Of a stretch of 64,000 bases of DNA, positions 1,163 through 59,076 are shown piece after piece. The translations under genes were made by a program, and so were the position numbers. The notes under the pieces were generated by a model, which was not told the DNA's origin, did not search any database, and saw only the letters and a list, made by a program, of their open reading frames with translations. Each line of letters starts with the position of its first letter. Within the stretch, counting starts at the first letter, position 1. The DNA lies in assembly GCA_019636285.1 (NCBI GenBank), contig JAHBXV010000006.1, positions 124,001 through 188,000 of the forward strand, read 5' to 3'. This stretch comes from Planctomycetaceae bacterium. Lineage in GTDB: Bacteria; Planctomycetota; Planctomycetia; Planctomycetales; Planctomycetaceae.

Positions 1163-1236
1163 GTGTGCCACTGGCTCCGCCAGTGCTTCTTATACGCTGG
1201 TCAACTTAAGGCACACTGGCAGAGCCAGTGGCACAC
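1163..1236. repeat. Intergenic palindromic element, GTGTGCCAC family (copy 1)
   Basis: Two inverted copies face each other. The left is GTGTGC followed by CACTGGCTCCGCCAGTG (1163-1185). The right is CACTGGCAGAGCCAGTG followed by GCACAC (1214-1236). Each arm is itself a hairpin, and the spacer holds CTTAAG. The element lies between the convergent EEP and sulfatase genes. Related copies are near 14695, 19622, 31144 and 39711. Confidence 0.9.
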
Positions 1237-7391: not shown

Positions 7392-7464
7392 GTGTGCCAC
7401 GGCTCTGTGAGCCGTGTGTATTTACATTTCCCCAGGACGCACGGCTCGCAGAGCCGTGGCACAC
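7392..7464. repeat. REP pair beside the RAYT gene (left side)
   Basis: The left arm is GTGTGC followed by CACGGCTCTGTGAGCCGTG (7392-7416). The right arm is CACGGCTCGCAGAGCCGTG followed by GCACAC (7440-7464). They form an inverted pair of hairpins (a BIME-like unit). The right arm is identical over 25 bases to the single element at 8114-8138, on the other side of the transposase gene. Confidence 0.92.
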
Positions 7465-7506
7465 AGATTTGGTAGCGTCTCGAGCAATTCGGTTGTGACG
7501 CGCCGT

Positions 7507-8076
7507 TCACGACAAATCGACCGGATCCATTTTGAGCGGGACATCCTCAATTCCCGCATGAGCCTGAGCACTCGACCATCGCCAGTCCGTGGGGCGCTCG
7601 ACAAGCCCGCGACGAACGGGATTGGCGTGAATGTAGGCAATCACCTGCTCGACAGTCTTTTCTTTCCAGATGTTTTCATCGTAGCCGCCGCCGGGTTGCC
7701 AGAAGCGGAATGTCTCACGATCTCCATGTCGGACGGTGAGTCGCCGCAGCGAGACGTCATTACCTGTTTGCTGCAGGAACGCTTTCGCGGCGCGGGAAAC
7801 GGGAGCCTTCAATCCCGCGAGAATCGGGCCCATCTCGTAAATGCGGTCCCGAGGGAGAAACAGCAGATGGACATGTTCGGGCATGATCACGTACGCCCAG
7901 ATCGCCACATTGCGATTTTCTCTCAGGCGGCTGAGCGCATCGATGACCCATTGTCGCGAACGATCTTTTGAAAGTAACGGCGAGCGTTTTTGGCATGAGA
8001 ACGTGAGGAAGTGTGCGTGGCCTGGTTCGTTGATTGTCCGTCGTGTCTTTCGAGGTGGGTATTCGGACTTTGTCAT
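7507..8076 (-). CDS. REP-associated tyrosine transposase (RAYT, Y1 HUH family)
   Basis: A 189-residue single-strand transposase of the Y1/IS200-like fold. The HUH metal-binding motif is HVH at residues 68-70 in MPEHVHLLF. The likely catalytic tyrosine is Tyr148 in VIAYIHANPVRRGLV, a motif typical of RAYTs. RAYTs cut and join REP palindromes but are usually single-copy domesticated genes and not selfish ISs. Palindromes flank this one closely: a pair at 7392-7464 beyond its 3' end and a single one at 8114-8138 upstream. The ATG at 8076 has GGAG about ten bases upstream. An ATG 20 codons earlier would translate part of the repeat itself. The gene appears intact. Confidence 0.92.
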   Translation of the reverse strand: MTKSEYPPRKTRRTINEPGHAHFLTFSCQKRSPLLSKDRSRQWVIDALSRLRENRNVAIWAYVIMPEHVHLLFLPRDRIYEMGPILAGLKAPVSRAAKAFLQQTGNDVSLRRLTVRHGDRETFRFWQPGGGYDENIWKEKTVEQVIAYIHANPVRRGLVERPTDWRWSSAQAHAGIEDVPLKMDPVDLS

Positions 8077-8113
8077 TTGGGCGTTCTCCGCCTCAAAGTC
8101 GTTTTTTCCATTG

Positions 8114-8138
8114 CACGGCTCGCAGAGCCGTGGCACAC
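8114..8138. repeat. Single REP palindrome beside the RAYT gene (right side)
   Basis: CACGGCTCGCAGAGCCGTG followed by GCACAC. It is identical to 7440-7464 and in the same orientation, so the RAYT gene is bracketed by direct copies of the palindrome. The stop of the next gene, read toward it, is at 8144. Confidence 0.92.
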
Positions 8139-14694: not shown

Positions 14695-14770
14695 GTGTGC
14701 CACTGGCTCCGCCAGTGCCTCTTTTTGTGGATGAAAGACTTAAGGCGCACTGGCGGAGCCAGTGGCACAC
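14695..14770. repeat. Intergenic palindromic element, GTGTGCCAC family (copy 2)
   Basis: The left arm is GTGTGC plus CACTGGCTCCGCCAGTG (14695-14717) and the right arm is CACTGGCGGAGCCAGTG plus GCACAC (14748-14770). The spacer contains CTTAAGG as in the copy at 1163. It lies between convergent genes. Confidence 0.9.
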
Positions 14771-19621: not shown

Positions 19622-19697
19622 GTGTGCCACTGGCTCTGCCGGTATGTCTTAAGTTGATTGGTAATAATAAGATGCACTGGCGGAGCCAGTGGCACAC
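19622..19697. repeat. Intergenic palindromic element, GTGTGCCAC family (copy 3)
   Basis: The left arm GTGTGCCACTGGCTCTGCCG is slightly degraded (19622-19643). The right arm is CACTGGCGGAGCCAGTG plus GCACAC (19675-19697). The spacer has CTTAAG. It lies between genes read in the same direction. Confidence 0.85.
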
Positions 19698-25094: not shown

Positions 25095-25152
25095 CTAGCC
25101 CGAAGCGTCAGCGAGGGAGCAACGTACAGCCCTCGCTGACGCTTCGGGTTAG
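25095..25152. repeat. GAAGCGTCAGCGAGGG palindromic element (copy 1)
   Basis: A 19-base arm CCCGAAGCGTCAGCGAGGG (25099-25117) is perfectly inverted at 25130-25148, with CTAG- and TTAG-type flanks. It lies between the gspK-like and PilM-PilN-like genes inside the secretion operon, on a transcript read right to left. A second copy with the same arms is at 59017-59076. Confidence 0.92.
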
Positions 25153-31039: not shown

Positions 31040-31388
31040 GTTTGAGCGGAAAGCTATTGGCGGAAAGCGGAGAGCCGGAAATAGTGAGTTTTGGTGATTG
31101 TTCTTGCTGGTTGCTGGTGGCTGGCTGCTTCTAATCTTTGGTTGTGTGCCACTGGCTCCGCCAGTGCATCGAGTCATGGTCCAACAACTTAAAATCTAAC
31201 ACAACCTCTGTGTCATGAAGTGTTTGCCCGGTGTTCCGCAGGTTTCTGGCAGGCACAACCGGTTGTGTTAGGGTTTCTAAGGCACACTGGCAAAGCCAGT
31301 GGCACACGAAACTGCGGAAAACGGTAACTGTCGCCTCTCGTAGTTCTTCTTGCTCGTTGCTGGAAGCTGGCGGCTGGCCGCTCCTCTT
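31040..31388. other. Intergenic region with palindrome and nested inverted repeat
   Basis: About 350 bases between the gspF and gspE genes, within the operon. It is mostly filled by the GTGTGCCAC element (31144-31307) and by G/C/T-rich low-complexity stretches (TTGCTGGTTGCTGGTGGCTG near 31104 and a similar one near 31352). No open frame with a recognisable start was found. Confidence 0.6.
31144..31307. repeat. Intergenic palindromic element, GTGTGCCAC family (copy 4, with insertion)
   Basis: The left arm is GTGTGC plus CACTGGCTCCGCCAGTG (31144-31166) and the right arm is CACTGGCAAAGCCAGTG plus GCACAC (31285-31307). The spacer is enlarged to about 120 bases and contains its own perfect 11-base inverted repeat, CTAACACAACC at 31196 and GGTTGTGTTAG at 31261. 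Confidence 0.9.
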
Positions 31389-39710: not shown

Positions 39711-39846
39711 GTGTGCCACTGGCTCCGCCAGTGTGCCTTCGTTCCCAGGCTCTGCTTGGGAACGCCTCTTCCCGAGGCTCCGCCTCGTCTTCGCGAGCGT
39801 GGGGCTTGTCGACTCTGATTCGTCCCCCACCGGCTTGTCCGGTGGG
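39711..39846. repeat. Cluster of four different palindromes
   Basis: Four hairpins follow each other closely: a half-element of the GTGTGCCAC family (39711-39733); GTTCCCA...TGGGAAC (39741-39763); CGAGGCTCCGCCTCG (39773-39787); and CCCACCGG...CCGGTGGG (39826-39846). They lie between the convergent paralogue B and topA genes. Confidence 0.88.
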
Positions 39847-59016: not shown

Positions 59017-59076
59017 GTAACCCGAAGCGTCAGCGAGGGGGATTCCACTCTCGCCCTCGCTGACGCTTCGGGTTAC
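59017..59076. repeat. GAAGCGTCAGCGAGGG palindromic element (copy 2)
   Basis: GTAA plus CCCGAAGCGTCAGCGAGGG (59017-59039) is perfectly inverted at 59054-59076. It has the same 19-base arms as the copy at 25095-25152. The element lies between the convergent glycosyltransferase and sugar isomerase genes, where it could form a hairpin at the end of both transcripts, but no T run follows. Confidence 0.92.

Follow-up and report, generated by a model that had tools for sequence, protein, structure and literature searches.

A planctomycete RAYT gene bracketed by GTGC-tagged REP hairpins, and covariation of the last tag base with an N-terminal residue among its relatives

The window analyzed here, a stretch of 64,000 nucleotides from a Planctomycetaceae bacterium, carries a RAYT (TnpA_REP) gene together with two kinds of tagged hairpins (Table 1). 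The reading frame of the gene is intact, running from an ATG at 8076 to a stop at 7507; the open frame extends further upstream to a GTG at 8136, which lies inside the hairpin on the 5' side, and we infer that the ATG is the likelier start. The original prediction, made from the letters of this DNA, had described a complete Y1 HUH transposase, and its numbering of the HVH motif and the catalytic tyrosine is exact.

Table 1. RAYT gene and REP elements in the window
Feature	Position	Strand	Basis or detail
RAYT / TnpA_REP gene	7507..8076	-	189 aa; HVH 68-70, WQ 126-127, catalytic Tyr148 (YIHANP)
REP: tag GTGTGC + hairpin CACGGCTC-TGT-GAGCCGTG	7392..7416	+	sequence
Inverted partner REP of 7392-7416	7440..7464	-	sequence
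Single REP, 5' side of RAYT gene, identical to 7440-7464	8114..8138	-	sequence
CACTGGC-family REPIN, 74 nt, putative cognate of the C92 RAYT	1163..1236	.	inverted pair 1163/1228
CACTGGC-family REPIN, 76 nt	14695..14770	.	inverted pair 14695/14762
CACTGGC-family REPIN, 76 nt, left hairpin degenerate	19622..19697	.	inverted pair 19622/19689
CACTGGC REP pair with longer spacer, 164 nt	31144..31307	.	inverted pair 31144/31299
Single CACTGGC REP	39711..39733	+	

The encoded protein scores 103.1 bits against the NCBIfam model NF047646 for REP_Tyr_transpos (cut-off 80) and 24.5 bits against PF01797 (cut-off 23), and it has an HUH motif and a tyrosine with the YxxxNP signature in a PF01797-like core. 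Its EHVH, WQ and YIHANP motifs fit exactly none of the subclass rows (2.1-2.8) in Table 1 of PMC6006769, and from the guide contacts of the E. coli enzyme given in that source, W94 and Q95 are retained and R104 is replaced. An AlphaFold2 model (mean pLDDT 93.8, with lower confidence in the N-terminal arm, mean 70 over residues 1-10) is closest in the PDB to 4er8, the REP complex of E. coli TnpA_REP (Z 17.0, rmsd 2.6, 145 residues), with the runner-up at Z 11.7. Judged by its substitutions, the gene is under purifying selection, because comparison with three close relatives gives a pN of 0.20-0.24 and a pS of 0.73-0.78. Gene copy number is low, as is identity between copies, the nearest paralogues within the same genome being 49% and 42% identical. 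The fold and the HUH/Tyr core are the same as in IS200/IS605, and the gene might be read as an ordinary autonomous insertion sequence of that group with the hairpins as its ends. However, the IS200 model NF033573 gives 18.2 bits, under its cut-off of 55, compared with the score for the REP model; the YxxxQ signature is replaced by YIHANP; no second copy above 49% identity exists in the genome; and the hairpins far outnumber the gene, which together make the insertion-sequence reading exceedingly improbable.

All three hairpins that flank the gene have the form GTGTGC-CACGGCTC-NNN-GAGCCGTG, with GTGTGC at the foot of the hairpin, 0 nt from the stem. The two on the 3' side of the gene form a 73-nt REPIN with tags facing outward, for which the DNA fold gives -34.9 kcal/mol. 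These hairpins had been read and placed correctly in the original prediction, and the flanking copies are identical as it claimed, over 26 bases (7439-7464 = 8113-8138) and not the 25 that it counted. The unpaired tetranucleotide at their 5' foot is GTGC and not the canonical GT[AG]G, and we treat it as a variant; the GT[AG]G foot is also absent from subclasses 2.6 and 3 as given in PMC6006769.

The hairpins are dispersed in many copies. GTGTGCCAC occurs 12 times in the window, compared with 0.51 expected from dinucleotide shuffles, and 11 hairpins combine a G[GT]GTG[GC] tag with at least 7 bp of stem, three of them flanking the RAYT and eight being of the CACTGGC type. As had been proposed, the dispersed elements at 1163, 14695, 19622, 31144 and 39711 share the outer flank and have a different core, CACTGGC-NNN-GCCAGTG. 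The flanking palindromes do recur elsewhere in the genome, an outcome on which the original prediction had been staked: the family that belongs to the window RAYT is small, with 21 perfect matches to GTGTGCCACGGCTC (0 in the reversed-pattern control), or 25 sites when the GGGTGC tag is included (GKGTGC). Exact GTGTGCCACTGGCT sites of the CACTGGC family number 239 (control 1). Among the first 100 CACTGGC sites listed, 42 form 21 outward-tag pairs, 15 of them exactly 76 nt long. We read 48 distinct copies, and 24 of these have a partner within reach, at 76 nt in 22 cases; because the two ends of one REPIN may both be counted, the 24 paired copies correspond to about a dozen elements. Across these 48 copies, the tag is preceded by C in 77% and by G in 0%, and in the NNNCTT after the hairpin the C is found in 75% and the two T's in 85% and 81%.

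Other repeats occur in the window and the genome. Inverted pairs of CCCGAAGCGTCAGCGAGGG at 25099-25148 and 59021-59072 make up a second repeat family, found 62 times in exact form across the genome (0 in the control). Contig C20 carries another Y1 HUH gene (L053; NHVH, YTTQAQ), perhaps class 3-like, that is flanked by this sequence as well. Beside the single REP at 39711, positions 39741-39795 hold the short palindromic repeats GTTCCCAGGCTCTGCTTGGGAAC and GGCTCCGCCTC, and a further Y1 HUH gene (L054, contig C13) has 30-33-nt inverted pairs containing CCGCCTCCGCTGGAGGCGG on both sides.

Matches to the Y1_Tnp profile at E<=0.01 fall at nine places in the genome (10 rows), four of which are in the RAYT group compared here: C70 (the window RAYT), C92, C33 and C59. 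The C92 RAYT, 42% identical to the window RAYT, has GTGTGC-CACTGGC hairpins on both sides, the C33 RAYT is flanked by GGGTGG-CACGCCC, and the C59 RAYT by GGGTGG-CCCCGGTTGC. The original prediction had seen in the dispersed CACTGGC elements the derived REP population of the window RAYT, whose stem would then have drifted from CACGGCTC. This reading draws on the GTGTGC and CAC...GTG common to both hairpin families and on the distance of less than 10 kb between some of the elements and the window RAYT gene, but CACTGGC stands on both sides of a C92-type RAYT, and in other genera CACTGGC goes with the C92-type clade and CACGGCTC with the window clade. We consider it very unlikely. Matching of hairpin to gene indicates instead that the dispersed CACTGGC elements have their own RAYT, the sister on contig C92, because that gene is flanked by exactly those hairpins. 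One genome can hold several RAYT/REP pairs with a common tag and different stems.

To place these pairs in a wider setting, we searched 150 genomes of the family with the window RAYT, and 79 had a match at E<=1e-15. We took 113 loci (4 from the genome itself, and 29 and 80 from family genomes), with fragments and the weakest listed places excluded. A GTG[GC]-tagged hairpin lies within 600 nt of the gene at 98 of the 113 loci, on both sides at 78, and none was found within that distance at 15. The 108 kb of RAYT flanks contain 196 GTG[GC]-tagged stems of at least 7 bp, compared with 1, 1 and 8 in three Markov resamplings, and the commonest tag hexamers are GGGTGG (101), GGGTGC (68) and GTGTGC (31). 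GTAG was also tried as the tag and gave 10 hairpins in these flanks. On the tree, stems group with their RAYT clade: CACGGCTC is kept by the window-type RAYTs of four genera (L060, L063, L064, L065, L092), the C92-type clade has CACTGGC, CACTGCTGG and CACTGTTGG, and CACGCCC, CTGGGG and CATGC are found in other clades. We show that, as far as sequence comparison reaches, the stem and the tag of the hairpin evolve with the RAYT lineage. With an intact RAYT, GTGC-tagged flanking hairpins, and tag and stem evolving along with the enzyme, the original proposal of a REPtron is upheld, and the window RAYT is very probably a single-copy, domesticated HUH/Tyr single-strand transposase that forms part of it.

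For 249 RAYT-flanking REPs with a stem starting in C, we counted the base after the hairpin, which is G in 2% of the 130 with a GTGC tag and C in 18% of the 119 with a GTGG tag. The base after the hairpin rarely complements the last tag base, and the latter is thus usually unpaired. Inspection by eye of RAYT-adjacent REPs gave no dinucleotide rule common to the tails of those with GTGG and those with GTGC. In a record named Desulfomonile tiedjei, a C92-type RAYT (L270, 1501-2031) has GGGTGC-CACTGCTGG on both sides, and it represents either a transfer between phyla or a mis-binned contig.

The number of REP copies was compared with the presence of RAYTs across the 150 genomes. All five genomes that carry a window-type RAYT have at least 4 copies of GKGTGCCACGGCTC (G000 25, G039 97, G026 9, G103 9, and G044 4, the last counted here with only a partial gene) compared with 3 of 145 without (G024 10, G049 14, G089 11; Fisher P = 9e-8). 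Similarly, of the 11 genomes that have a CACGCCC-clade RAYT, 9 hold at least 4 copies of GGGTGGCACGCCC (CACGCCC), compared with 18 of the 139 that lack one (P = 2e-6). The anticipated correlation between palindrome number and RAYT gene holds for the window type, and it breaks down in part for CACTGGC, where the link to the C92-type RAYT is loose and the second outcome named as contrary to the original prediction, palindromes abundant in genomes that lack the gene, is partly seen. GKGTGCCACTGGC (CACTGGC) has 268 copies in G000, and no C92-type RAYT was found in G066 (262 copies), G029 (235), G106 (160), G088 (88), G141 (61) and G071 (54). The best RAYT match in these six has an E value of 1.6e-19 or worse; their RAYTs are of other subfamilies, mostly at about 25-38% identity, with none at all in G071, and most CACTGGC-rich genomes without a C92-type RAYT carry other Y1 genes. 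Their CACTGGC REPs may be orphan or trans-mobilised, or the RAYT genes may have been lost in assembly. G065, with 156 copies, does have a C92-type RAYT, whose own REP is CACTGCTGG.

We rescanned 17 genomes, mainly those with CACGCCC or CACGGCTC copies but no cognate RAYT, with the C33 RAYT, and 15 gave some RAYT-like match. In G056, a C33-type RAYT lies in broken pieces (58% and 60% identical) on contig C382, with 20 CACGCCC copies, as if the enzyme were decaying before its REPs. REPIN-bearing E. coli genomes without a RAYT are already on record (PMC8049555). Persistence of REP populations without a detected cognate RAYT, and the position of most REP copies in the window between the main ORFs, could also fit palindromes kept by the host as structural or transcription-end elements, to which the neighboring RAYT would be incidental or only a host regulator. 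Such a role is hard to reconcile with the coevolution of tag and stem with the adjoining RAYT across many genera and with a paired unit of fixed 76-nt length, and we regard it as quite unlikely.

The last base of the tag changes between G and C at least nine times on the RAYT tree. In a scan of all alignment columns, the strongest association with this base was a histidine in the N-terminal arm, at a residue numbered -17 from the TFSC motif (as in xHRKxxKHxHEPGDLHELTFSC). Within the main clade of the discovery loci, His is found at -17 in 36 of 50 C-tag RAYTs and 0 of 36 G-tag RAYTs (P = 8e-13 with kinship ignored; two mixed loci and the G-tag locus L071, which has no anchor, are left out). 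The rule was recorded before it was tested on 80 further loci from a different collection and on L204, whose tag call is based on one 6-bp hairpin. Removal of new loci with at least 90% identity to discovery loci and of one near-copy left 56, and L271, itself a discovery locus, was also removed. Among the 43 new C92-type loci for which tag and residue were both read, His occurs in 28 of 34 with a C tag and 2 of 9 with a G tag (Fisher P = 0.0014), N or K goes with a G tag in 5 of 5, and Q with C in 1 of 1. Arg has a C tag in 5 of 5 new loci, yet a G tag in 5 of 7 discovery loci, and it is uninformative because the association is opposite in the two sets. L235 and L267, with His and GTGG, are exceptions to the rule. 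The window RAYT has Pro8 at this position with a C tag and the C92 RAYT has Arg with a C tag, and the rule is silent on both.

We obtained similar results with Pagel-type tests of correlated evolution in which the arm was left out of the tree [new loci alone P = 0.019, discovery C92 loci P = 8.9e-4, discovery main clade P = 1.4e-6, all loci combined P = 4.2e-6, or 9.6e-6 with the arm kept in]. In the C92-type clade, the alignments indicate that changes of the tag base go along with changes at an N-terminal His that directly precedes a conserved RK, which makes the N-terminal arm the leading candidate for the part of the enzyme that reads or accommodates the last tag base. The covariation may also reflect shared ancestry or hitchhiking with another site, with no contact between residue and base. 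Residue -17 was chosen by scanning all columns, the rule has exceptions, and a stricter test of independent pairs on supported branches yields only 7 pairs and falls short of significance (4.3 agreeing, 0.3 opposing, median P 0.125). In addition, residue 9 of our model aligns with residue 1 of 4er8, and -17 thus has no counterpart in the E. coli protein. On the other side, the rule was fixed in advance and upheld in the 43 new loci, and the signal of correlated evolution is present in the new loci alone as well as in the combined set. We give the explanation by ancestry or hitchhiking not quite an even chance. Loss of R104 was considered separately as the cause of the G/C switch and was rejected, being common to GTGG and GTGC relatives.

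Two RAYTs in G125 differ at this residue, L142 with Asn at -17 adjoining GGGTGG-CACTGTTGG and L148 with His at -17 adjoining GTGTGC-CACTGTCGG. The 66 REPs of this genome, classed by tag and stem, comprise 38 G/TTGG, 15 C/TCGG, 10 C/TTGG and 3 G/TCGG (odds ratio 19, P = 5e-6), and the same classes in G140 number 14, 9, 6 and 0 (P = 7e-4). The mixed class implies that the separation of REP subpopulations is incomplete.

Cleavage of single-stranded REPs by TnpA_REP enzymes takes place at CT or CA. When the tag is changed from GTAG to GTAC, Marinomonas TnpA_Mb cleaves at GA and GT instead, as would be expected if the fourth base of the tag paired with the first base of the cleaved dinucleotide (PMC8266576). 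By analogy with these relatives, we infer that the window RAYT would bind the single-stranded hairpin with its unpaired tag and that Tyr148 would cut at a dinucleotide selected by pairing with the tag, which under the Marinomonas rule would start with G for GTGC. The window RAYT probably recognises and spreads its flanking hairpins. In this genome, CACGGCTC is paired with the window RAYT, CACTGGC with that of C92, and GTGG-CACGCCC with that of C33. REPINs, as inverted pairs of about 73-76 nt, may occasionally be copied to new, mainly intergenic sites. We compared G125 and G140 (88% identical, 105 kb colinear aligned) for REPIN empty sites, and no clean one was found at three sites and then at ten more candidates. 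The first three hold two complex indels and one shared REP; six of the further ten have no alignment to the predicted place, and the four with matches give two long indels between aligned flanks, one case of two partial matches, and one short weak match. For the REPIN as a mobile unit of fixed length, the constancy of 76 nt in nearly all paired copies stands beside this absence of clean empty sites in the two genomes.

Taken together, these observations are compatible with a planctomycete branch of RAYTs in which the guide naturally switches between GTGG and GTGC (the changes counted on the tree), the arm (His versus Asn/Lys/Gln/Asp/Glu before RK) reads or accommodates the last base, and the switch would retarget cleavage from C-starting to G-starting dinucleotides, insulating sister pairs. 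We advance this tentatively, as a possibility that is somewhat more doubtful than not. If true, sister RAYT/REP pairs in one genome would be insulated by a single DNA base and a single enzyme residue. Knowledge of how RAYTs recognise REPs and choose cut sites comes from a small number of gammaproteobacterial enzymes (PMC8266576). The present loci provide a natural series of more than 100 enzymes with their substrates, almost entirely from a single phylum, whose stems and guide bases vary along with the enzyme. The series points to a specific residue for testing, with the paralogous pairs of a single genome serving as internal controls, and the REP-rich genomes in which no cognate RAYT was found lend themselves to the question of how REPs are maintained.

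The TnpA_REP/RAYT enzymes of E. coli, Pseudomonas and Stenotrophomonas are HUH/Tyr proteins of the same NCBIfam family and fold as the window RAYT, and their systems have in common with it a foot tetranucleotide, inverted pairs and several RAYT/REP pairs per genome (PMC2817692, PMC8266576, PMC3116915). The tag differs, ending in GTGC in the window system (GGGTGG/GGGTGC in relatives) compared with GTAG/GTGG in those bacteria. The guide loop of the window RAYT reads WQxGGGYDRN, with the E. coli R104 replaced, and the protein has a short N-terminal arm that E. coli TnpA_REP lacks. Class 3 TnpA_Y1 proteins resemble the window system in occurring in planctomycetes with a non-GTAG foot, CnGA, but their signature is Y....Q, whereas the window RAYT has the class 2 YxxxNP (PMC6006769). 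RAYT/REP pairs in planctomycetes are in print for Rhodopirellula baltica, whose tyrosine transposase genes, described as 'a plethora', have repeats at their flanks, a situation like that of the window genome (PMC3733652), and the original remark that such systems are little described in this group is fair. The R. baltica REPs are classed under GTAG, with the variants GYAG, GYRG, GTRG, GTMG and GTGG, and GTGC does not appear in the main text of that paper. In the literature examined, REP feet are given as CnGA, CGTC, or GT[AG]G with its variants; in open-licence literature, taken as main texts with few figures and supplements, we found neither a natural GTGC foot nor covariation of a guide residue. 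In Marinomonas TnpA_Mb, the change of the fourth tag base that alters the cleavage dinucleotide in vitro was made by laboratory mutation (PMC8266576), whereas GTGC in the planctomycete family is natural and recurrent. The window system is therefore of the known REPtron type, and what it adds is the GTGC guide variant and a testable hypothesis of specificity.
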